A program made the position numbers and the translations under genes. From positions 124,001 through 188,000 of the forward strand of contig JALHMR010000006.1 in NCBI GenBank assembly GCA_022843945.1: a DNA stretch of 64,000 nucleotides, in the 5' to 3' direction. The notes beneath the pieces are model-generated. The model was not told the DNA's origin. It made no database searches and saw only the letters and a program-made list of their open reading frames with translations. The stretch is from Rhodospirillaceae bacterium (lineage in GTDB: Bacteria; Pseudomonadota; Alphaproteobacteria; CACIAM-22H2). Shown piece after piece: positions 18,353 to 31,034 of the stretch (its first letter is position 1; the number at the start of each line of letters is the position of its first letter).

Positions 18353-20017
18353 ATGAGAGCCGAAGACCGATTCGCCCTCGCCCTGGCCGTCCTGCTCTGG
18401 GCGGTCGGCGTCGCTATTGCGTTGGCCACGCGCTCGGCCATGCCGGTCGACGAGACGCGCTACCTCGCCGTCGCCTGGGAGATGTGGCGCAGCGGCGAGT
18501 ACATCGTGCCCTCGCTCAACGGTGTCGAGTATCACCACAAGCCGCCGCTGCTCTTCTGGCTGATCAACGCCGGCTGGGCGCTGTTCGGCGTCAGCGAGAT
18601 CTGGGCGCGGCTGGTGGCGCCGCTGTTCGGCCTCGGCTGCCTGCTGCTCACCGCCCATCTGGCGCGCCTGCTGTTTCCGGAACGGCCGGCGATGGCCGGC
18701 CTCGCACCTTTGGTGCTGAGCGGGGCGCTGTTCTTTGCCTCCTTCGGGACGCTGACCTTCTTCGACTCGCTGATCGCCTTCTTCACCCTGCTGGGGCTGA
18801 TCGGCGTGGTGACGGCGGCGCAAGGGCGGGCGGCGCGCGGCTGGACGATCTATGGCCTGGCCATCGGGCTCGGCATCCTGAGCAAGGGGCCGGTGCAGCT
18901 TCTCGACCTCGCACCGGTTGCCCTGCTGGCGCCGCTCTGGCTGCGCGACCGGCCGGTCGCCTGGAAGCGCTGGTACGGCGGTTTCGCGCTCGCCGTGCTC
19001 GGCGGGGCGGCCATTGGCCTTGCCTGGGCGATGCCGGCGGCGCTGCGCGGCAGCCCGGAATTCGCCTACATGCTGTTCGTCGGCCAGTCCGCCAAGCGGG
19101 TGGTCGAAGCGACCTGGCACGAGCGGCCGTTCTGGTGGTATGTGCCGCTCTCCTTCCTGCTTCTCTTTCCCTGGCTATGGTGGCCGTCGTTCTTCCGCAG
19201 CCTGGCGAACCGCGCCGTCTGGTCGGAAACCGGCGTGCGCTTCTGCCTGGCGACTTTCGTGCCGGTGTTCGTCGCCTTCTCCGCCATCAGCGGCAAGCAG
19301 CCGCACTACCTGCTGCCGCTCCTCCCGATCTTCGCCCTGCTGCTCGCCCGTTTCGTCGATGCGGCAAGCGAGACCGGTCGCTTCTCCGATTCACGCCTGT
19401 TCCGTCTGCCGCCGCTGCTGCTCGTCGTTGGCGTGGGCCTGGCGCTGATTGCGACACAGCTGATGACCGATCGCCTCGTCGCCTGGCGGCCGCGCATCGC
19501 CGAGCTGCTGAGCGACGGCCACGGCGGGCTGATCCTCGGTCTCGGTTTGATGGGGCTGGCGCTCTGGATCGCCTTCGACCGGGCGCGCGACGCGCGCTTC
19601 CGCATCGCCACCCTGACGATCCTGTCGGTCGCCACGGTCAGTGCCGCGCAGTTCTGGGTCGGCAATCATCTGCGCGAACGCTTTAACGTCGCCGTGGTGG
19701 CGGCGGAGTTGGCCAATGCAGAGGCGGCGAACCGGCCGGTGGCAGTCACCTACGACTATCACGGCCAGTATCATTTCGCGGGCCGGCTGGCGCGGCCCAT
19801 CCGCTCCTCCACCAAGGATGACGTGCTGGACTGGGTGAAGAGCAACCCCAACGGCCTGGTGGTCGACTATCGCAGCGAAGACCCGGCGACCTATCCGGCC
19901 CAGCCCTCGTTCGTCGGCGAGTATCGCGGCCGCTATGTCCTGCTCTGGCCCGCCGCCGCCGTGGCGATGCATGGCCGCGACATCCTGTTCGACAGAAAAG
20001 ACCGGCCCGGCGGCTAG
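18353..20017 (+). CDS. ArnT-like/GT39-type membrane glycosyltransferase
   Basis: 554 residues with about 12 membrane segments. The first periplasmic loop has VDETRYLAVAWEMW, the conserved acidic pair of PMT/ArnT-type GT-C transferases, followed by the usual YHHKPPLLFWLINAGW. These enzymes move a sugar or aminoarabinose from a polyprenyl phosphate carrier onto lipid A or protein in the periplasm. There is no arn operon nearby, so the acceptor is unknown. The ATG at 18353 begins the protein at a normal cytoplasmic tip; the upstream reading frame is antisense to the ALDH gene and not coding. Its stop TAG overlaps the stop of the convergent acyl-CoA synthetase gene (shared CTAG). Confidence 0.88.
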   Translation: MRAEDRFALALAVLLWAVGVAIALATRSAMPVDETRYLAVAWEMWRSGEYIVPSLNGVEYHHKPPLLFWLINAGWALFGVSEIWARLVAPLFGLGCLLLTAHLARLLFPERPAMAGLAPLVLSGALFFASFGTLTFFDSLIAFFTLLGLIGVVTAAQGRAARGWTIYGLAIGLGILSKGPVQLLDLAPVALLAPLWLRDRPVAWKRWYGGFALAVLGGAAIGLAWAMPAALRGSPEFAYMLFVGQSAKRVVEATWHERPFWWYVPLSFLLLFPWLWWPSFFRSLANRAVWSETGVRFCLATFVPVFVAFSAISGKQPHYLLPLLPIFALLLARFVDAASETGRFSDSRLFRLPPLLLVVGVGLALIATQLMTDRLVAWRPRIAELLSDGHGGLILGLGLMGLALWIAFDRARDARFRIATLTILSVATVSAAQFWVGNHLRERFNVAVVAAELANAEAANRPVAVTYDYHGQYHFAGRLARPIRSSTKDDVLDWVKSNPNGLVVDYRSEDPATYPAQPSFVGEYRGRYVLLWPAAAVAMHGRDILFDRKDRPGG

Positions 20018-21444
20018 CGGCGGCCGCGCAAGGCCGGCGGGCGATTGGGAAGCGGGCTGGCGGCTGCGCGCTTGAACGCAGGGTAACGCGCCAGCAGGCC
20101 GGCGCACTGGCACATCTCCTCGACGTCGTTGAACATCGGCACGCCGGCCGATTCCATCGTCGCCGACCACTCGCTCCACCCCGGCAGCGTCCCCATCATG
20201 CTGTGCATGAAGGGTACGGGCACCTTACCGGCGAGACCCGCCAGCTTGGCGATCACGGGGGCCGCATCGACCATGAACGGCACCACGTGGATGCCCAGGA
20301 TGGCATCGAACACGCCGCCGCCGTGGCGGATGGCGGATTCGAGCGTCAGGCCGAAGCGATCCTCGCGGGCATCGGCGAGGAGGTCGAGCGGATTGGCCAC
20401 CGACGCTTCCGGCGGCACGGCCGCCCGCAACTCGTCGGCCATGGCTGGCGGCAGGGTCACGAGATCCAGGCCTTCGGCATCGGCGCGGTCAGCGGCGATC
20501 ACACCCGGCCCGCCGGAATTGGAGAGCAGCAGGATGCGCTTGCCCATGCCTTGCGGGAAGAAGCCGAATCCCTTGGCGGCGAGCAGCCCGCTGCGCAGGC
20601 TGCGCACGCGGATCATGCAGGATTCCGCCGCAAAAGCCTCGATCGCGGCGTCGGTATTGAGCACGGCGCCGGTATGCGCGGCGGCCGCGCGGGCCCCGGG
20701 CGCGGAGCCGCCGCCCATGAACAGCACCACCGGCTTCTGCGCGGCCACGGCACGGGCAACGCGCCGGAAGCGGTCGGGGTCCTCGATCGATTCAACATAG
20801 AGGAGCACGCTGCTGCAGCGCGGATCGTTGCCCAGGTACTCGAGATAGTCCTCGATGCCGAGCTGGGTGGCGTTGCCGACCGAGACGACCGTGCCCAAAG
20901 GAATGTTCATGCGGTTGGCGGAGGAGATCACCTCCTCGGCCAGGGCCCCCGACTGCGAGATGAAGGCAAGCCCGCCGCCCGGCGGTAGATCGCGCAGGAA
21001 CGTGGCGCCGAAGCGATGGCTCTCGGCGAGGCTGATGATGCCGGCGCAGTTGGGGCCGGCGACCGTCAGGCCGTGCTGCTTGATCAGCCCCTGCAGCTCG
21101 GCATCGCGGGCCTTGCCCACCTCGCCGGCCTCGGCAAAGCCGCCGGGCAGGATCAGGAAATTGCGATGACCCGTGCCGACCGCCTCGCGCACAGCATCGA
21201 GGATCTGGTCCGGCCGGATGACGATGACGCAGAGCTCCGCCGGTTGGCCGATGTCCTTGAGCGAGGCGTGCATCGGCACGCCGAAGGCCACACCGCCCTT
21301 CGGATTGATCGGGGCGATGCGTCCCGCGTAGCCGCTCTTGCGCAGCATCTGCAGCACGGCGCCGCCGGATGAGGTGGCCCGCTCGCTGGCGCCGACGATG
21401 GCCACGGACGAAGGCGCGAAAAAAGCGCGGAGATCGCGGCTCAT
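20014..21444 (-). CDS. NDP-forming acyl-CoA synthetase, alpha-chain type (CoA-binding plus succinyl-CoA-ligase-like domains)
   Basis: 476 residues. The CoA-binding Rossmann domain is at the start (SVAIVGASERATSSGG, INPKGGVAFGVP). Ligase-like domains follow with GPNCAGI, GGLAFISQSGALAEE and AAHTGAVLNTDAA, where the His is the position that is phosphorylated in AcdA-type enzymes. The ATP-grasp (beta) part is not present here, so activity would need a partner encoded elsewhere. It begins one base after the MarR stop and is co-transcribed with it. Its place in the regulon suggests a role in acid activation or CoA transfer, perhaps with the nearby AMP-forming ligase. Confidence 0.85.
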   Translation of the reverse strand: MSRDLRAFFAPSSVAIVGASERATSSGGAVLQMLRKSGYAGRIAPINPKGGVAFGVPMHASLKDIGQPAELCVIVIRPDQILDAVREAVGTGHRNFLILPGGFAEAGEVGKARDAELQGLIKQHGLTVAGPNCAGIISLAESHRFGATFLRDLPPGGGLAFISQSGALAEEVISSANRMNIPLGTVVSVGNATQLGIEDYLEYLGNDPRCSSVLLYVESIEDPDRFRRVARAVAAQKPVVLFMGGGSAPGARAAAAHTGAVLNTDAAIEAFAAESCMIRVRSLRSGLLAAKGFGFFPQGMGKRILLLSNSGGPGVIAADRADAEGLDLVTLPPAMADELRAAVPPEASVANPLDLLADAREDRFGLTLESAIRHGGGVFDAILGIHVVPFMVDAAPVIAKLAGLAGKVPVPFMHSMMGTLPGWSEWSATMESAGVPMFNDVEEMCQCAGLLARYPAFKRAAASPLPNRPPALRGRR

Positions 21445-21445
21445 G

Positions 21446-21964
21446 TCAGCGCCGCGCCACGCGCGTCAACAGATCGAACAGGCGCTGCCGCTCGGCCGGC
21501 GAAAGATCGGCGGCGATGCGCTCCTCGTGGGCATCGAGCCGGGGCTGCAGCCGCGTCAGCAGGGCGACGCCGCCCGGCGCCAATTCCAGCGCATGCGCCC
21601 GCCGGTCGCTGATACGCGGCGCGCGGCGCACCCAGCCGCGCTTCTGCAGACGGTCGATCAGCGGCACCACGGAGGAACGGTCGATACCGAGCGCCAGGCC
21701 AAGCTCGCTCTGGCTGAGGCCCTTGTTGGCTTCGATCAACAGCAAGGCGCCAAGCTGGCCGGGCGTCAGCCCGAATTCCTTCATCTCGGCGGCGAAGTCC
21801 TGGAAGACACCGAACTGGGCCCGCCGCAAGGCATAGCCGAGCAACCGTTCGAGCCGCCCGAGCGCCAGCGGCGGCTTGCGGCTGGACGACCGTCCGGCGT
21901 CATCCGCGGGTGCGTCACGCACCAGGCTCTCGACATCGCTCTTCAGGCTCGGCGCCCGGGCCAT
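21446..21964 (-). CDS. MarR family transcriptional regulator of the aromatic-CoA cluster
   Basis: 172 residues with the winged-helix MarR pattern: LTPGQLGALLLIEANKGLSQSELGLALGIDRSSVVPLIDRLQKRGW (shown in part) and the wing RAPRISDRRAHALELAPGG. The ATG at 21964 (MARAPSLKSD) is preferred over an in-frame start at 22021, because a -10/-35 pair and a perfect inverted repeat occupy the stretch between them. The operator overlapping its own promoter implies autorepression. The same repeat occurs at two catabolic promoters, so this is the likely regulator of the whole cluster. MarR proteins of this type usually respond to aromatic acids or their CoA esters. Confidence 0.9.
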   Translation of the reverse strand: MARAPSLKSDVESLVRDAPADDAGRSSSRKPPLALGRLERLLGYALRRAQFGVFQDFAAEMKEFGLTPGQLGALLLIEANKGLSQSELGLALGIDRSSVVPLIDRLQKRGWVRRAPRISDRRAHALELAPGGVALLTRLQPRLDAHEERIAADLSPAERQRLFDLLTRVARR

Positions 21965-22030: not shown

Positions 22031-23572
22031 TCAGGGAGCGGCGCCATGCTTTCGTCGGTAATCCGCGCGCAGTTCATTCTTCTGAATCTTGCCCACGGCC
22101 GTGCGCGGCAGCGCCTCGACGATCTCGATGGCGCGCGGGCGCTTGAAACGCGCGACCGCGCCGGCGACAAACTCGATCAGAGTTTCGGGCGTGACCGAGG
22201 CGCCGGCCCGCAGAACGACACAGGCCGCCGGCACCTCGCCCCAGCGCTCGTCGGGGATGCCGAACACGGCGCATTCGGCGACGGCGGGATGGCGGTGAAG
22301 CGCGTTCTCGAGCTCGGTCGGGTAGATGTTCTCGCCGCCCGAGATGATCATGTCCTTGGAGCGATCGACCAGGGTGAGAAAACCGTCCTCGTCGAGCCGG
22401 GCGAGGTCGCCCGTCCACAGCCAGCCATCGCCGGTCTTGTAGAGCCGCGCCGTCTCCTCCGGGTCTCCGTCATAGGCGGTCAGCAGATTGGGGCCGCGAA
22501 CCACGACTTCGCCGAGGGTCCCTGCCGGCGCTTCGCGGCCCTGCGGGTCGAATATCTTGATCTCCAGGTTGGAGGCAAGGCGCCCCACGGTGCCAAGCTT
22601 TTCCGCTGGATGATGGCCCCGGCGGACGGAGAGCGGACCGGTTTCGGATTGGCCGTAATTCTCGATCAGCTCCGCATCGGGCAGTGCCGCGCGGAGTCTC
22701 TCGTACAACACCGGCGGCATCGGCGCGGCCGCATAGTTGAGATGGCGCAGCATCCTGAGCCGCGCCGCGCTGAAGCCGGGGCAATCCAGCAAGTCCGCGA
22801 TCTGAGTCGGCACCAGCAGGGCCGCGGTCACGCCGTGCTCCTCGACCAGTGCCATAAAACGCTCGGCGTTCCAGCCGGCCTGCAGCACGCAGGTGCAACC
22901 CATCATGAGGGCGGGCTGCAGCCAGGCGAACATGCCCGCGACATGGAACAGTGGCGTGGTGACGATCACCACGTCGCGCTCCGCCTCAAGGCCGAAATCG
23001 CTGGCCACGGTGAGGGCGCTGATATGCCGGGCCCGGTGCGAGGCCAGCACGGCCTTGGGAAATCCTGTCGTGCCGCCGGTGAAGGTGATGGCCAGTGGAT
23101 CGTCGGGCAAGAGGGTTCGCGCGAACGACACGCCACTGCCGCGTCGCAGCAGAGATTGAAAATTTTCGCTGCCGGTCGTCGCCGGCCCGACAGCGATCCA
23201 GTCCTGCACCCGCGGCAGCGATGGACGAGCCGCGGCCGCGAGCGGCGCGAAATCCGAGGCGAAGACCACCAGCTCCGCCCTGACTTTCGCCAGCATGTAG
23301 GTGATATCGGCCGGCGTAGCGCGGGTCGAGACGCTGACCACAACCAGGCCGGCCCGCGCGGCACCCCAGTAGAAGACCGGGAAGGCCGCGATGTTGGGGG
23401 CGAGGATGGCGACCCGGCTGCCCTGGGTGAGGCCACGCTCGGCCAACGCCGCGGCGCAGGCGTCTGCCTGGCGATCGAGCTCGCTGAAGCTGAGCCGCTC
23501 GGACCCGGCGATCAGCGCCGGCTTGTCGCCGAAGCGGGCGGCCGCCTGCCGGAGAATCTCACCGGCCAGCAT
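22031..23572 (-). CDS. AMP-forming acyl/aryl-CoA ligase (ANL superfamily)
   Basis: 513 residues. The phosphate loop reads TFTGGTTGFPKAVL (Gly in place of the usual Ser). YGQSETG is the A5 motif, TGDLARLDEDGF holds the adenylate-binding Asp, and VDRSKDMIISGGENIYPTE is the hinge. RTAVGKIQKNEL carries the catalytic Lys. It activates a carboxylic acid to its CoA thioester in the cytoplasm. GGGAGGAA precedes the ATG at 23572. Divergent from the reductase gene, with MarR operator site 2 between them. From its neighbours (diiron oxygenase, gentisate dioxygenase, 4HBT thioesterase), benzoate, salicylate, hydroxybenzoate or anthranilate are the likely substrates. The sequence alone does not decide. 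Confidence 0.9.
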   Translation of the reverse strand: MLAGEILRQAAARFGDKPALIAGSERLSFSELDRQADACAAALAERGLTQGSRVAILAPNIAAFPVFYWGAARAGLVVVSVSTRATPADITYMLAKVRAELVVFASDFAPLAAAARPSLPRVQDWIAVGPATTGSENFQSLLRRGSGVSFARTLLPDDPLAITFTGGTTGFPKAVLASHRARHISALTVASDFGLEAERDVVIVTTPLFHVAGMFAWLQPALMMGCTCVLQAGWNAERFMALVEEHGVTAALLVPTQIADLLDCPGFSAARLRMLRHLNYAAAPMPPVLYERLRAALPDAELIENYGQSETGPLSVRRGHHPAEKLGTVGRLASNLEIKIFDPQGREAPAGTLGEVVVRGPNLLTAYDGDPEETARLYKTGDGWLWTGDLARLDEDGFLTLVDRSKDMIISGGENIYPTELENALHRHPAVAECAVFGIPDERWGEVPAACVVLRAGASVTPETLIEFVAGAVARFKRPRAIEIVEALPRTAVGKIQKNELRADYRRKHGAAP

Positions 23573-23674: not shown

Positions 23675-24712
23675 ATGAGTTTCCGCGTTACCTGCCCCCA
23701 GTTCGACGAGCCCTTCACCGTCGAGATGGGCCAGACCATTCTCGAAGGCGCGCTGGCGCATGATCTCCCCTACCCGCATGGCTGCCGCTCCGGCAATTGT
23801 GGCGCCTGCAAATCGGAGCTGGTTTCCGGCGAGGTTGAGATGTCGCCCTACTCGGATTATGCCCTGAGCGAAGACGAGAAGGCGGGCGGCCTGATCCTCG
23901 CCTGCCGCGCCGTGCCGTGGTCGGACTGCGAGGTCAAATTCCTCGAAGCCGACGAGACGGTGGTGCATCCGCTGCGCCACCTGCAATGCCGGGTGGTCGA
24001 GGTGGCGAGCGTCACCCACGACATCCGCCGGATCCGTTTCGAGATCCTGTCGGGCGGGCCCTATACGTTTTCGGCCGGTCAGTATGGCAGCCTGGAATTC
24101 CCCGGCCTGCCGCCGCGCGACTACTCGATGGCCAATCGTCCCGGTGAGCCGGTTCTGGAATTTCACATCCGCCTGGTTCCCGGCGGTGCCGTGACCCCTT
24201 ACGTCGCGGGCAAGCTGACGGTCGGCGACACGGTGAAGATCATCGGCCCCTACGGCACCTCGTATCTGCGCGAGAAGCACAGCGGGCCGATCGTGGCGCT
24301 GGCCGGCGGCTCGGGCCTCGCCCCGATCAAGTCGATCGTCGAGACGGCGCTCCTCGATCTGGGCTCGCGCCAGCCCCTGCATCTCTATTTCGGCGTACGC
24401 GACGAACGCGACCTGTACCTGGAACAGCACTTCACCGATCTTGCCGCGGCCAATCCCAACCTGACCTTCGTACCGGTGCTCTCGGAGCCGACCAGGACGA
24501 CGACGCGCCGCACGGGATTCCTGGCCGACGCGGTGCGCCAGGACTTCGGCACGCTCGACGGCGCCAAGGTGTATCTTGCCGGTCCGCCGGTGATGGTCGA
24601 AACCGCCTTGGCGGCGCTTGAAACCATGGGTGTCCGCAAGCAGGATTGCCACGCCGACGCGTTCTACACCGAGGCGGAGAAAACGGCGCTCAACCAGAAG
24701 GCGGCATCATGA
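23675..24712 (+). CDS. NAD(P)H oxidoreductase with N-terminal [2Fe-2S] ferredoxin domain (oxygenase electron-transfer component)
   Basis: 345 residues. The plant-type ferredoxin domain occupies about residues 1-90, with cluster ligands C37, C42, C45 and C77 (CRSGNCGACK ... LACRA). Then comes an FNR-type FAD domain (RDYSMANRP binds the flavin) and an NAD(P) domain starting ALAGGSGLAPIKS, ending near YLAGPPVMVE. The order ferredoxin-FAD-NAD is that of phenol hydroxylase, methane monooxygenase and benzoyl-CoA-type reductases, which feed electrons to diiron oxygenases. The diiron protein is encoded two genes downstream. The gene is the first of a tight plus-strand operon controlled by operator site 2, and its TGA overlaps the next ATG. 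Confidence 0.93.
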   Translation: MSFRVTCPQFDEPFTVEMGQTILEGALAHDLPYPHGCRSGNCGACKSELVSGEVEMSPYSDYALSEDEKAGGLILACRAVPWSDCEVKFLEADETVVHPLRHLQCRVVEVASVTHDIRRIRFEILSGGPYTFSAGQYGSLEFPGLPPRDYSMANRPGEPVLEFHIRLVPGGAVTPYVAGKLTVGDTVKIIGPYGTSYLREKHSGPIVALAGGSGLAPIKSIVETALLDLGSRQPLHLYFGVRDERDLYLEQHFTDLAAANPNLTFVPVLSEPTRTTTRRTGFLADAVRQDFGTLDGAKVYLAGPPVMVETALAALETMGVRKQDCHADAFYTEAEKTALNQKAAS

Positions 24713-25656
24713 CCGACACGCAAGCACTCAAGGGCCGCGTCGCCCTCGTCACCGGTGCGGCACAAGGCATCGGCAAGGCGATCGCCGAGGTGCTGGCCGC
24801 GCGTGGCACGCAGATCGTGCTCGCCGATCCTGGCACCAGCATCGACGGCAGCGGCGCCGATCCCAAGCTCGTCGAATCAGTGGCCAGCAAGATCGGTCCG
24901 TCAGCGACCGCCTTCGGCGAGAGCATCGCCACGCCGTCCGCCGCCACGGCCGCGGTCGAAACTGCGGTGCGCAAGTTCGGCGGCATCGACATCGTGGTCA
25001 ACAACGCGGCCATCCTGCGCGACGCGCTGGTCTTCAAGCTCGAGCCGCGCGACTGGGAGGCGGTGATCCGCACCAACCTCACCGCGGCGGCGCTGATCAC
25101 CGCGGCTGCCACGCCGATCCTGCGTGACAATGCCAAGGCCGGACGCGGCGGCACGCCCTATGGCTGGGGCCGCATCGTCAATATCGGCTCCACGGCCGGG
25201 CTCTACGGCAATTTCGGCCAGGCCAGCTACGCCAGCGCCAAGGCCGGACTGATGGGCCTGACCCGCGTCACGGCGCTAGACATGTCGCGCTCTGGCGTCA
25301 CCGCCAATCTGGTGGCGCCGTTTGCCGCCACCCGCGTCACCGAGACGATCAAGCCGGCGAACGACGCCCAGGCCAAGTACAAAGCCGGCGCCATGAGCGT
25401 CTCGGCCAGGCACGTGGCGAACTTTGTCGCCTTCCTCTGCTCGCCCTCCGCCCAGAAGATCAGCGGCCAGGTGTTCGGCGTGCGGGCGCGCGAGGTCTTC
25501 CTCTTCCAGCAGCCGCGCCCGATCGCGCGCATCGTCAACGGCGGCGGCGAATGGACGGATGACGATCTCGCGGCCTCCGTCACCCAGGCCTTCAACCCGC
25601 ATTTCACAGCGCTGACCACCGATCTTGAATCGTTCAGCACCGACCCCATTGTCTGA
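24709..25656 (+). CDS. SDR family oxidoreductase (MFE2/3-hydroxyacyl-CoA dehydrogenase-like)
   Basis: 315 residues. The SDR core has TGAAQGIGKA, NNAA, catalytic Ser in NIGSTAGLYG and YASAK with Tyr/Lys, all intact. The stretch MGLTRVTALDMSRSGVTANLVAPFAATRVTET and the C-terminal extension of about 60 residues resemble the dehydrogenase domain of peroxisomal multifunctional enzyme type 2, which acts on CoA thioesters. ATGA overlap with the reductase gene. In this operon it could dehydrogenate a dihydrodiol- or hydroxyacyl-CoA intermediate formed after oxygenation. Confidence 0.88.
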   Translation: MTDTQALKGRVALVTGAAQGIGKAIAEVLAARGTQIVLADPGTSIDGSGADPKLVESVASKIGPSATAFGESIATPSAATAAVETAVRKFGGIDIVVNNAAILRDALVFKLEPRDWEAVIRTNLTAAALITAAATPILRDNAKAGRGGTPYGWGRIVNIGSTAGLYGNFGQASYASAKAGLMGLTRVTALDMSRSGVTANLVAPFAATRVTETIKPANDAQAKYKAGAMSVSARHVANFVAFLCSPSAQKISGQVFGVRAREVFLFQQPRPIARIVNGGGEWTDDDLAASVTQAFNPHFTALTTDLESFSTDPIV

Positions 25657-25670
25657 CAGGAAGGGTCCCC

Positions 25671-26405
25671 ATGACCGACACGACAAAGCCCGACACGGCA
25701 AAGCTTCAGATCAAGACCGTCGAGGAGCTCAAGAGCCAGCCGGAGGAATACCGGACGGCCTGCGAGAAGCTGGTGATCAGCCACGCGATCAATGAGCTCT
25801 ACGGGGCGCGCGCCTTCGACGAACCGGCCGTCGCCTTGGCGCCGCATCCCTATGCCAAGTGGCTGACCTGCCGGGTGGCCATGGAGGAATACGGCCATCA
25901 CGTGCGCTTCTTCGAGCTCGGTCGCGAGATGGGCGTCGAGGCCGACCGCATGATCCCCGAGAAGACCAGCAAGAAGCCGCTGTCGATCTTCGACTACCCG
26001 CTCAAGACCTGGGAGGAGTTCGTCGCCATCAAGCTGCTGGCCGACCTCGCCGAGATCCTGCAGGTCGAGGACCTGCTGCACTGCACCTTTCACCCCTTGC
26101 GCAACCTCGCACGCATGACCATGCCGGAGGAGCGCTTCCACGCCCAGTTCGGCCTCGATTTCGGCGCCGAGCTGGTCAAGACGCCCGAGGGCAAAGCCCG
26201 CCTGCAGGCGGCGGTCAACACCGTGTTCCCGACCATGCCGAACTTCTTCGGCGGAGCGAAGTCGCGCAACAACGAGATCTTCCGCAAATGGGGGATCAAG
26301 CTGCGCACCAACGAGGAAATGCGCGACGACTACATCAACCGCGCCCGTGACGCCGCCGGCAAGATCGGCCTCACCCTGCCGGAGGTCGCGGTCGCCGCTG
26401 CCTAG
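25671..26405 (+). CDS. PaaA/PaaC-like ferritin-type diiron protein (putative aryl-CoA monooxygenase)
   Basis: 244 residues, mostly helical. A full diiron ligand set is visible: E42 (INELYG), E73 with H76 (EEYGHH), E128 (LAEIL) and E154 with H157 (EERFH). That is the E...ExxH...E...ExxH pattern of phenylacetyl-CoA epoxidase (PaaA), BoxB and ferritin-like oxygenases. At 244 residues it is shorter than PaaA (about 310) and BoxB (about 470), and no partner PaaB, C or D gene is present. It therefore appears to act as a single oxygenase subunit with the reductase encoded upstream. Predicted to use O2 and NAD(P)H to hydroxylate or epoxidise an aromatic CoA ester. Fifteen bases separate it from the SDR gene. 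Confidence 0.82.
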   Translation: MTDTTKPDTAKLQIKTVEELKSQPEEYRTACEKLVISHAINELYGARAFDEPAVALAPHPYAKWLTCRVAMEEYGHHVRFFELGREMGVEADRMIPEKTSKKPLSIFDYPLKTWEEFVAIKLLADLAEILQVEDLLHCTFHPLRNLARMTMPEERFHAQFGLDFGAELVKTPEGKARLQAAVNTVFPTMPNFFGGAKSRNNEIFRKWGIKLRTNEEMRDDYINRARDAAGKIGLTLPEVAVAAA

Positions 26406-26447: not shown

Positions 26448-27530
26448 ATGGATACGACACCGACCCGCACGCCCGAGCGCGACGCTTATTACAAGAAGAT
26501 CGGCGCCAGCAATCTTGCCCCGCTCTGGGAGGTGCTGCACGGCCTGATCCTCAAGGAGCCGCGCTCGCCGGCCCTGCCGGCGCATTGGCGCTACGGCGAC
26601 GTGCGCCCCTACATCATGGAAGCCGGGACGCTGATCACCGCCAAGGAGGCGGAGCGGCGCGTGCTGGTGCTCGAGAACCCGGGCCTGCGCGGCCAGTCTA
26701 AGATCACCAACACGCTCTACGCCGGCCTGCAGCTCATCCTGCCGGGTGAAGTGGCACCCGCGCACCGCCACAGCCAGTCGGCGCTGCGCTTCATCGTCGA
26801 AGGCAAGGGCGCGTTCACCGCCGTCGATGGCGAGAAGAGCATCATGGCGCCGGGCGACTTCGTCATCACGCCGTCGTGGACGTGGCACGACCACGGCAAC
26901 GAGAGCCGGGAGCCGATGGTCTGGATGGACGGGCTCGACGTGCCGCTGGTCGGCCTGCTCGATGCCCAGTTCGCCGAGGCCTATCCCACGGATTCGCAGC
27001 CGGTCGGCCGCCCGTCGGGCGATTCATTGGCGCGCTACGGCTCGGGCCTGATGCCGGTGGGCTACGAGACTAAATCGATCACCTCGCCGGTCTTCAACTA
27101 TCCCTACACGCGCACGCGCGAAGCGCTGGAGACGATGCGCAAGGCCGAGGAATGGGACACCTGCCACGGCCTCAAGCTGCGTTACGTCAATCCGCTCGAC
27201 GGCGGCTTCGCCATGCCGACGATCGGCACGTTCATGCAGCTGCTGCCCAAGGGCTTTAAGACCATCCCCTACCGCTCCACCGACGGCACGGTGTTCTCGG
27301 TGGTCGAGGGCAAGGGCCGCACCGTGGTCACCGACGCCACCGGCAAGACGCACACCTACGACTGGGGGCCGCGCGACACCATGGTCGTGCCGAGCTGGCT
27401 CTGGCATCGCCACGAAGCCGACGACGACGCCGTGCTCTTCAGCTTCTCCGACCGGCCGGTGCAGTCGAAGCTCGGCCTGTGGCGCGAGATGCGCGGCAAC
27501 GAGCAGAGCATGCCCTCGGGCCGGGCGTAA
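26448..27530 (+). CDS. Gentisate 1,2-dioxygenase (bicupin)
   Basis: 360 residues, standard length for the enzyme, which cleaves gentisate to maleylpyruvate using Fe(II) and O2. The N-terminal cupin carries the three-His iron site: H106 and H108 in PAHRHSQSALRFIVEG and H147 in SWTWHDHGNE. The second cupin (PYRSTDGTVFSVVEGKG, SWLWHRHEA) is conserved in sequence. Salicylate and 5-hydroxyanthranilate dioxygenases belong to the same family, so the substrate is not fully fixed. Fifth gene of the reductase operon counting the unknown that follows, 42 bases after the diiron gene. Its TAA overlaps the ATG of the next gene by one base. Confidence 0.9.
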   Translation: MDTTPTRTPERDAYYKKIGASNLAPLWEVLHGLILKEPRSPALPAHWRYGDVRPYIMEAGTLITAKEAERRVLVLENPGLRGQSKITNTLYAGLQLILPGEVAPAHRHSQSALRFIVEGKGAFTAVDGEKSIMAPGDFVITPSWTWHDHGNESREPMVWMDGLDVPLVGLLDAQFAEAYPTDSQPVGRPSGDSLARYGSGLMPVGYETKSITSPVFNYPYTRTREALETMRKAEEWDTCHGLKLRYVNPLDGGFAMPTIGTFMQLLPKGFKTIPYRSTDGTVFSVVEGKGRTVVTDATGKTHTYDWGPRDTMVVPSWLWHRHEADDDAVLFSFSDRPVQSKLGLWREMRGNEQSMPSGRA

Positions 27531-28084
27531 TGCCGGCTCTGGCCGCTGACCTGGCCGGGCTGGGCCGGTTCGCGGCGTCGCTGGGCAGCGCCTCGTGGTT
27601 TGCCGCGGTCGGCCAGGACCTGACCGCGGCCGAAAGGCGCGAAGGCGAAGACTATCTCGCGGCACTTGCTCTCAATGCCGGCCTCGCCGGCGTCTCGGAT
27701 TGGCGCACGGCCGAGAAAGTGACGCGCGATCCCAACTGGAACCCCGCCTGGTGGAATGCCGAGGAAGCGGCGCGCCAGGCGCTGCTGGCCCGCGCCCGCG
27801 AGATCTGGGGCGAGCACGGCCTGCTCAGTGCCCTGACCCGCGTCACCGACGAAGCGACGCGCCTGACCCTGGGCGCGGCCTCGATCGCCGCGGCCCGCGA
27901 CGGCATCGCCGATCCGGCCCTGAGCCGGGTCGCCGCCGGAGCCGCCACCCAGGCCGCCTACCAGGCCGCCCTGGCGTTGGCCGCCGAGACCGGCGCCGCT
28001 CATCCCTTCCAGATCAAGTTCCGGCTATTCGCCGCCGGGCGCTGGCCCTTGGGGCTGGTCGGGGATACATTCCACCTGTTCTGA
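27530..28084 (+). CDS. Uncharacterised alpha-helical protein in the gentisate operon
   Basis: 184 residues, not recognised. Rich in Ala, Leu and Glu, and predicted mainly helical, with no signal peptide, cysteine cluster or obvious metal motif. A tryptophan/asparagine-rich patch (DPNWNPAWWNAEE) stands out near residue 65. The start codon overlaps the gentisate dioxygenase stop (TAATG), which strongly suggests coupled expression and a role in the same pathway, perhaps as an accessory or isomerase-like protein. No function can be assigned. Confidence 0.7.
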   Translation: MPALAADLAGLGRFAASLGSASWFAAVGQDLTAAERREGEDYLAALALNAGLAGVSDWRTAEKVTRDPNWNPAWWNAEEAARQALLARAREIWGEHGLLSALTRVTDEATRLTLGAASIAAARDGIADPALSRVAAGAATQAAYQAALALAAETGAAHPFQIKFRLFAAGRWPLGLVGDTFHLF

Positions 28085-28113
28085 GTCACCCCGACTCGCG
28101 GGATCGATTAACC

Positions 28114-28446
28114 ATGCCGCATGTGCTTCGCGATACATCGGGCCGGATCCTGGCGGTGCTCGACCGGCCGAGCGCCGGCGGCACCGAAGAGGTCGGCCAG
28201 GAAGATCCCGAGCTCGTCGGCTTCCTGGCCCGCAAGGGGCCCACCTCGTATTTCGACCTGCTGCGCGCCGACCTCGAATTCATCCGCGTCATCGAGGACC
28301 TGATCGCCGTGCTGCTCAGCCGCGGCGTGATCCTGATCACCGACCTGCCGGAGCAGGCGCAGGAGAAGCTGCTGCGCCGCGGCAGTTTGCGCCGCCAGTT
28401 CCGCGATACTTCGGGCCTGATGCCCGAGGACGAGGACGTCCTCTAA
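28114..28446 (+). CDS. Small conserved hypothetical protein
   Basis: 110 residues. It begins MPHVLRDTSGRILAVLDRP and contains a helical core (DLEFIRVIEDLIAVLLSRG) followed by ITDLPEQAQEKLLRRGSLR, ending in acidic residues. Similar short proteins in other proteobacteria have been given misleading names such as tryptophan synthase beta-like; I see no enzyme motif. It lies 29 bases after the preceding unknown gene, probably at the end of the gentisate operon, and is convergent with the thioesterase gene (gap of 12 bases). Confidence 0.75.
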   Translation: MPHVLRDTSGRILAVLDRPSAGGTEEVGQEDPELVGFLARKGPTSYFDLLRADLEFIRVIEDLIAVLLSRGVILITDLPEQAQEKLLRRGSLRRQFRDTSGLMPEDEDVL

Positions 28447-28458
28447 GCACTCGCTCAG

Positions 28459-28875
28459 CTAAGCACTCAGGGCGTCGACGATCGCCTTAGGCACCGGCCG
28501 CGCCTTGAGACGCGACGGGTCGTCCGGATGCCATTCGCACCAGATGCGCGTCTCCATGCCTTCGACGCAAAGCGTGCCCTTGTTGAACACCTTGTGCACG
28601 ACGTCGAAAGTCTTCTCGCGCCAGTCGGCGACATGGCTGGCGATGGTGATCTCCTCGAAGAATTTCGAGGGTGCGATGAATTTCGACTTCGCCTCGAGGA
28701 TCGGCATGCCGGCGAACTTGTACTCGTTGTAGAGCACGTCGGGCGGGAAGCCGCCCTTGGCGAACAGCTTCCAATTGGCGTCGTCGAACCAGGCGAAGTA
28801 GTTCGGATAGAAGACGATCTTGGCCGGATCGCAATCCGCCCATTCGATGCGGCGGGTGTATTCGTGGGTCAGCAT
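28459..28875 (-). CDS. Acyl-CoA thioesterase of the 4-hydroxybenzoyl-CoA thioesterase type
   Basis: 138 residues, single hot-dog domain. The segment WADCDPAKIVFYPNYFAWFDDA is very close in pattern to the active site of Pseudomonas 4-hydroxybenzoyl-CoA thioesterase (the Asp of DCDP is the catalytic residue and YPNY follows). It would release a free aromatic acid, here plausibly gentisate from gentisyl-CoA, just before ring cleavage. The gene overlaps the MFS transporter gene by 7 bases and is co-transcribed with it. Confidence 0.9.
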   Translation of the reverse strand: MLTHEYTRRIEWADCDPAKIVFYPNYFAWFDDANWKLFAKGGFPPDVLYNEYKFAGMPILEAKSKFIAPSKFFEEITIASHVADWREKTFDVVHKVFNKGTLCVEGMETRIWCEWHPDDPSRLKARPVPKAIVDALSA

Positions 28876-30185: not shown

Positions 30186-31034
30186 TCAGCCTTCCTTGAT
30201 CGTGTTGCGCAGCACGCCGACGCCGGTGATCTCGATCTCCACCGTGTCGCCGACCTTCATGAACTCCGGCGGGGTCCGGGCGAAGCCGACACCGCCCGGC
30301 GTCCCGGTGACGATGACGTCGCCGGGCCGCAGCGGCGTGAAGCTCGAGATGTAGGCGATCTGCTCCGGGACATCGAAGATCATCATGTCGATCGTGGCCT
30401 GCTGCTTGACCACGCCGTTGAGCCGCGTGGTCAGCGTCTGCTTGGTGATGTCCTTGAGCTCGTCGGTCGTCACCATCCACGGACCGAAGCCGCCGGTCGC
30501 GGGAAAGTTCTTGCCCGGCGTGAACTGGCTGGTGTGGCGCTGCCAGTCGCGCACGCTGCCGTCGTTGTAGCAGGCATAGCCGGCGACGTAGCTCATCGCC
30601 TTCTCGCGCGGGATGCGGTGGCCGGTCTTGCCGATGATCACGGCGAGCTCGCCTTCCCAGTCGAACTTGTCGGATTCAGTCGGCTTGATCATCGGCTGGT
30701 CGTGGCCGACCTGGCTGTCCGCCCAGCGGGTGAACAGGGTCGGGTGCACGGTGTCGGGACGACCGGTCTCGGCCCGGTGCTCGCGGTAGTTGAGGCCGAC
30801 GCAGACGATCTTGCGGGCGTCCGGGATGGTCGGCAGGTACTGGATCTTGGCGAGCTTGATGGTCGGCTTCTTGCCCTTGGCGGCCTTCTTGAGCGTGTTC
30901 AGGGCGCCGCCGACCAGCGCTGCCCGCAGGGTCGGATACTTCTTGCCGAACTTCTTGCCCAGATCGACCACCCCGTCGTCCACCACGACGCCGTAGCTGG
31001 GCTTCTTCTGATAGAGGTAACTCACGAATTTCAT
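30186..31034 (-). CDS. Fumarylacetoacetate-hydrolase family protein (fumaryl/maleylpyruvate hydrolase candidate)
   Basis: 282 residues with the FAH C-terminal fold. VCVGLNYREHRAETG starts the catalytic part, FDWEGELAVIIGKTGHRIP holds acidic metal ligands, and SSFTPLRPGDVIVTGTPGGVG is the family hallmark. Members split C-C bonds in 3-oxo or 2,4-dioxo acids. With gentisate dioxygenase in the same regulon, the natural assignment is hydrolysis of fumarylpyruvate to fumarate and pyruvate, or of maleylpyruvate directly, since no maleylpyruvate isomerase gene is seen in the window. Downstream of the VOC gene with a gap of about 125 bases; a strong terminator follows. Confidence 0.88.
   Translation of the reverse strand: MKFVSYLYQKKPSYGVVVDDGVVDLGKKFGKKYPTLRAALVGGALNTLKKAAKGKKPTIKLAKIQYLPTIPDARKIVCVGLNYREHRAETGRPDTVHPTLFTRWADSQVGHDQPMIKPTESDKFDWEGELAVIIGKTGHRIPREKAMSYVAGYACYNDGSVRDWQRHTSQFTPGKNFPATGGFGPWMVTTDELKDITKQTLTTRLNGVVKQQATIDMMIFDVPEQIAYISSFTPLRPGDVIVTGTPGGVGFARTPPEFMKVGDTVEIEITGVGVLRNTIKEG

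Follow-up and report, generated by a model that had tools for sequence, protein, structure and literature searches.

Stand-alone diiron proteins of the PaaA type form a conserved clade tied to gentisate catabolism: putative aryl-CoA ring oxygenases with a BenC-type reductase

Judged from its sequence and gene context, the 244-aa product of a gene at positions 25671–26405 of the window (i.e., the whole 64,000-nucleotide stretch of DNA analysed here) belongs to a discrete and conserved clade of diiron proteins of the PaaA type. These proteins stand alone, come with a BenC-type reductase and are tied to gentisate catabolism. On balance, we think it probable that this protein is the catalytic part of a two-component aryl-CoA ring oxygenase that feeds gentisate. 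We infer its metal content, activity and substrate, along with the order of the pathway steps and the role of the neighbouring SDR dehydrogenase. The genes relevant to this reading are:

20014–21444, minus strand: CoA-binding, succinyl-CoA-ligase-like protein, the alpha part of an NDP-forming acyl-CoA synthetase (PF13380 + PF13607)
21446–21964, minus strand: MarR regulator (Pfam), which adjoins the operon in most loci
22031–23572, minus strand: AMP-forming acyl/aryl-CoA ligase (AMP-binding), divergent from the reductase
23675–24712, plus strand: BenC/MmoC-type reductase, the likely electron donor (Fer2 + FAD_binding_6 + NAD_binding_1; 193 bits against the BenC model, under that model's equivalog cut-off)
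24709–25656, plus strand: SDR dehydrogenase of the MFE-2/(3R)-hydroxyacyl-CoA dehydrogenase type (adh_short)
25671–26405, plus strand: putative aryl-CoA ring oxygenase, a stand-alone PaaA/PaaC-family diiron protein (PF05138, ligands, AlphaFold)
26448–27530, plus strand: gentisate 1,2-dioxygenase (TIGR02272, 572 bits vs a cut-off of 442; PDB 2d40)
27530–28084, plus strand: p200, a conserved protein of 184 residues that has no Pfam family (locus conservation; Imm5-like fold)
28459–28875, minus strand: 4HBT thioesterase, likely to hydrolyse gentisyl-CoA (closest in the PDB to the 4-hydroxybenzoyl-CoA thioesterases 5wh9 and 1bvq)
30186–31034, minus strand: fumarylacetoacetate-hydrolase family protein, a candidate fumarylpyruvate hydrolase (PF01557)

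Family, ligands and fold of the diiron protein

The open reading frame at 25671–26405 was confirmed, with an ATG start, and the sole Pfam match of its product is PF05138 (PaaA_PaaC; 101.9 bits vs a cut-off of 28.5). An earlier reading of this DNA from its sequence alone had reported all six diiron ligands to be visible, and they are: E42, E73, H76, D125, E154 and H157 pair one-to-one, in both sequence and profile alignments, with Glu42, Glu72, His75, Asp126, Glu155 and His158 of E. coli PaaA, which PMC4498308 lists as binding iron. None of the six varies among the 53 orthologues (63–89% identity). The residue pattern is genuine and far exceeds what chance would produce. The protein nevertheless scores below the equivalog cut-offs for PaaA (TIGR02156, 90.8 bits vs 280), PaaC (TIGR02158, 27.8 bits vs 133), and BoxB (TIGR03225, 11.2 bits vs 499).

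The sequence-only reading also called the protein far smaller than PaaA or BoxB. This is right for BoxB (~470 aa) and only moderately so for PaaA (~310–330 aa), and the protein is close in size to PaaC (~250 aa) and to SSO1313 of Sulfolobus solfataricus (235 aa). Small size alone is not new, because SSO1313, likewise a small PF05138 protein with the same fold (23% identity), has already been solved in this size class (PDB 4mud). The gap to PaaA consists of the C-terminal ~65 residues of PaaA, which contain Leu286 of the pocket entrance (the CoA-pocket gate). Since this gate is missing, the CoA site must differ from that of PaaA, which we count against our main reading.

An AlphaFold model of the diiron protein was built from 53 orthologue sequences (mean pLDDT 92.9, pTM 0.88) and searched with Foldseek, using VIA-align 2 as a second check on the ranking. 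By VIA-align 2, the best match is PaaA (Z 27.8, rmsd 2.2 Å over 240 residues), followed by SSO1313 (Z 25.5), PaaC (Z 23), BoxB (Z 21) and an aldehyde-deformylating oxygenase (Z 20). MiaE is absent among the fold matches listed by either program. The earlier suggestion of a PaaA/BoxB-type protein is thus confirmed by both fold and family, and one of the two outcomes it had named as fatal, that the homologues act as MiaE-type or storage proteins, is not supported: we rejected MiaE and ferritin-type storage proteins as candidates, given no profile match to them and, among the fold matches listed, PaaA, SSO1313, PaaC and BoxB at the top.

In a 40-row tree (phylogeny being one of the checks originally proposed), the window protein and its orthologues form their own clade with support of 100/99, outside both PaaA and PaaC, with two reductase-linked proteins (genomes G215 and G136) as the sister rows. 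A profile of the clade matches 17/240 alphaproteobacterial genomes at 401–446 bits and the next best match is at 142 bits, so the clade is discrete. These 17 carrier genomes are spread over 14 families.

Compared with PaaA, the oxygenase subunit of 1,2-phenylacetyl-CoA epoxidase (PaaABCE), the clade is alike in fold and in all six ligands, but identity is only ~23%. The position of PaaA's ring-orienting Phe108 (F107 here) is Phe in 47 and Met in 6 of the 53 orthologues, and the residue at the position of PaaA's Lys103 is mostly basic. In contrast, the lysine bridge of PaaA (Lys68; PMC4498308) is missing, with Val in 50 orthologues and Ile in 3. The clade has invariant residues of its own (R68, E72, H77, K121, E128, E133 and D134), which are mostly different elsewhere in PF05138. 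Taken together, the profile cut-offs, the tree, the lysine bridge and the missing partners rule out membership of PaaA or PaaC.

Those partners were sought across the whole genome, which is 96.7% complete: neither PaaB (PF06243) nor PaaD (TIGR02159) was found, and PaaC is missing as well, since BoxB is the one further PF05138 match. The absence of a PaaB/PaaD-like coupling protein, first noticed in the window, thus extends to the genome, and the diiron protein is probably a stand-alone subunit that works without PaaB, PaaC and PaaD. BoxAB is active without a coupling protein. PaaB, for its part, is a bridging subunit and not an MmoB-type regulator (PMC4498308). A coupling protein is therefore not expected here.

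Three other loci showed unusual members of the family. One orthologue (L093) lies on a contig binned as Chloroflexi, reflecting either transfer or a binning error. Another locus (L031/L022; G029:C490) encodes two PF05138 proteins, with Arg replacing the first ligand Glu. On an Alteromonas plasmid (L168, 5974–8329), a 250-aa PF05138 protein whose ligand Asp is replaced by Glu adjoins radical SAM and MaoC genes.

Reductase, SDR and p200

In the reductase, an N-terminal 2Fe-2S domain precedes the FAD and NAD domains, giving the BenC/MmoC layout. The protein differs from BoxA and also from PaaE, in which the 2Fe-2S domain is C-terminal. The SDR gene sits between the reductase and diiron genes, sharing an ATGA overlap with the former, and the best PDB match of its product is 2et6 (231 bits vs 164 for the next). 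Across the 17/17 carrier genomes, a reductase orthologue lies 936–1055 bases upstream of the diiron gene, with the SDR gene between them. We also fetched 80 loci and counted each gene over those loci where it was testable: the reductase was present in 72/74 and the SDR in 72/75. Two loci (L104 and L112) keep the CoA ligase, reductase and diiron genes while having no SDR and no detectable p200, which we count in favour of our main reading.

The sequence-only reading had assigned the diiron protein a reductase encoded two genes upstream. The position stands; the implied dedication is uncertain, because an orthologue of the reductase occurs without the diiron gene in 14 genomes scoring at least 380 bits and in two with weaker scores. 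For example, genome G075 (L209) has a cluster of reductase, SDR, gentisate dioxygenase and p200 with no diiron gene, and another locus (L155) has gentisate dioxygenase, p200 and a fumarylacetoacetate hydrolase with a reductase match, again with the diiron gene absent. Given the G075 cluster and the 14–16 diiron-less reductase genomes, the operon's other genes are independent of the diiron gene, a point against our main reading.

The reductase may therefore serve more than one oxygenase. Taken further, it could work mainly for another oxygenase such as BoxB, with the diiron protein relying on a different donor. Among diiron-less genomes, the reductase is indeed associated with BoxB (7/14 vs 22/209, p 6e-4), and a profile search of the window's own genome found no BoxA above its cut-off. 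However, the order and spacing of the reductase, SDR and diiron genes are constant in every carrier genome, and we regard this explanation as distinctly unlikely. As a separate observation, the BenC-like reductase is a possible substitute for BoxA in this genome.

A further candidate partner is p200, which could be the missing coupling or scaffold subunit of a complex larger than the one we propose. In 59/68 testable loci it follows either the diiron gene or that of gentisate dioxygenase, and it is present in 16/17 carrier genomes. However, it is unlikely to be dedicated to the operon: of the 51/240 genomes that have p200, 27 lack both the diiron gene and a strict gentisate dioxygenase, and in the inspected genomes lacking gentisate genes it is found at ftsK-lolA-xth. 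Moreover, p200 is single copy in nearly every genome having it, and no p200 could be detected in nine of the testable loci which retain the diiron gene. Its model (pLDDT 95.7) most closely resembles an immunity protein, RhsI2 (Z 11.3, with the next unrelated row at 4.2). We therefore do not favour p200 as a coupling protein and consider such a role very improbable. Downstream of p200 is a small conserved ORF (28087–28446, ~119 aa), which is kept in several related loci.

Gentisate linkage and the proposed reaction

A strict gentisate dioxygenase is encoded in 17/17 carriers vs 19/223 non-carriers (Fisher p 2e-16, in counts that ignore shared ancestry). Its gene directly adjoins the diiron gene in 14/17 carriers and lies ~2.2 kb away in one. 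It was also found in 12/12 genomes tested, including Reyranella-type ones which have the gene elsewhere.

This association could reflect a shared regulon only, with the diiron protein acting on a free aromatic acid, a non-aryl acyl-CoA or some other small molecule. Several observations would fit: the Reyranella-type loci, with their gentisate dioxygenase elsewhere, have an alpha/beta hydrolase and an M81-type metallopeptidase as neighbours; other PF05138 branches adjoin radical-SAM or MaoC genes; and the CoA ligase is closest to fatty-acid and cinnamic-acid ligases (in the PDB, FadD5/FadD13, then feruloyl-CoA synthetase and 4-coumarate-CoA ligase). Against this, every carrier has the strict gentisate dioxygenase, the cluster holds an aryl-CoA-type thioesterase, and PaaA's aromatic-orienting residue is retained. 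We consider this alternative as a whole unlikely. In one Reyranella genome, the neighbours of the gentisate dioxygenase gene gave no pointer to an upstream pathway.

Because its nearest relatives are FadD-type, feruloyl-CoA and 4-coumarate ligases, the CoA ligase does not name the acid. A profile test sets it apart from benzoate-CoA ligases, which counts against our main reading, as does the absence of the ligase and of the thioesterase from some loci. In favour of that reading, 39/52 testable loci do have a CoA ligase or an NDP-forming synthetase, and 35/52 have a 4HBT protein. Relatives of the 20014–21444 protein occur downstream of the operon in many loci, and TRAP systems are among the transporters encoded close to the operon in other loci.

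In the aryl-CoA oxygenase reading that we prefer, the neighbouring ligase would make the CoA thioester of an aromatic acid, and electrons would pass from NAD(P)H through the 2Fe-2S/FAD reductase to the diiron centre. This centre would activate O2 and, in the manner of PaaA and BoxB, place one oxygen atom onto the ring close to the thioester. The product would be gentisyl-CoA or would be converted into gentisyl-CoA by the MFE-2-type SDR, an enzyme type that fits because a ring 2-hydroxyl amounts to a beta-hydroxyacyl-CoA. The 4HBT thioesterase would then release gentisate, and gentisate 1,2-dioxygenase would open the ring.

The substrate is most likely a monohydroxybenzoyl-CoA. PaaA and BoxB oxidise the ring beside the side chain. 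Oxidation of 3-hydroxybenzoyl-CoA in the same manner, i.e., ortho to the thioester, would give gentisyl-CoA. We slightly prefer this substrate over salicylyl-CoA, the main alternative. Benzoyl-CoA itself is an unlikely substrate, given that BoxB, which already handles it, is present in 16/17 carriers (vs 29/223 other genomes), and a hydroxybenzoyl-CoA is therefore the better guess. In this genome, BoxB, BoxC, a BoxR-like regulator and a benzoate-CoA ligase are encoded ~107 kb away on the same contig (G000:C6:41051-44524; L002, L029).

The same evidence bears on whether the diiron protein is a compact BoxB analogue, forming an epoxide or dihydrodiol from benzoyl-CoA that the SDR turns into hydroxybenzoyl-CoA, with further oxidation leading to gentisate. 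The two proteins share a fold, an SDR beside an oxygenase recalls the BenC/BenD arrangement, and the conversion of benzoate to gentisate needs two added oxygen atoms. However, the Box enzymes just described already cover benzoyl-CoA, and the SDR is missing from two loci; such a role strikes us as quite improbable.

A more specific version of the aryl-CoA oxygenase reading, which we advance tentatively, is that the clade constitutes a new group of single-subunit diiron enzymes which convert hydroxybenzoyl-CoA to gentisyl-CoA with a BenC-type reductase and an MFE-2-type SDR. Put differently, and with equal reserve, a PaaA-type enzyme may here make a phenol in a hybrid CoA/gentisate pathway, as opposed to an oxepin-bound epoxide.

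Comparison with known systems

PaaABCE is linked to PaaG and PaaZ, whereas the diiron gene is linked to gentisate genes and has no PaaB, PaaC or PaaD alongside. The closer organisational parallel is benzoyl-CoA 2,3-epoxidase (BoxB/BoxA), which likewise has the diiron fold and combines a single oxygenase subunit with a reductase and no coupling protein. However, the diiron protein is half the size of BoxB with ~19% identity, and its reductase is not BoxA. The routes also differ, with that of BoxB leading to the Box dihydrolase and that proposed for the diiron gene to gentisate, and both coexist in most carriers.

Salicylyl-CoA 5-hydroxylase (SdgC) and other CoA routes resemble the proposed pathway in that a CoA thioester is hydroxylated before gentisate dioxygenase acts, but the hydroxylases of those routes are flavoproteins and are not known to include diiron proteins. 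A BenABCD-type operon similarly places a BenC-like reductase and an SDR beside an oxygenase; there the oxygenase is a Rieske dioxygenase, whereas the window's is a diiron protein and its substrate is presumably a CoA thioester.

Searches of the open-licence literature yielded no account of a PF05138 protein occurring together with gentisate genes, which is weak evidence of absence. If our reading is correct, the clade would supply the oxygenase for an as yet unassigned CoA-dependent gentisate route in the 17 carriers among the 240 sampled alphaproteobacterial genomes. It would also show PaaA-type diiron subunits to be capable of working in the absence of PaaC, their structural partner, and of PaaB, their bridging one. 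In addition, it would offer a compact system for studying what makes such an enzyme epoxidise or hydroxylate a ring. Annotations that label such genes as phenylacetate catabolism would need correcting.

Finally, ~4 kb before the window this genome has another gene for a strict gentisate 1,2-dioxygenase (L175:9108-10169; G000:C6:119119-120126), which adjoins an SDR, a nitroreductase-like ORF and an alcohol-dehydrogenase-like ORF.
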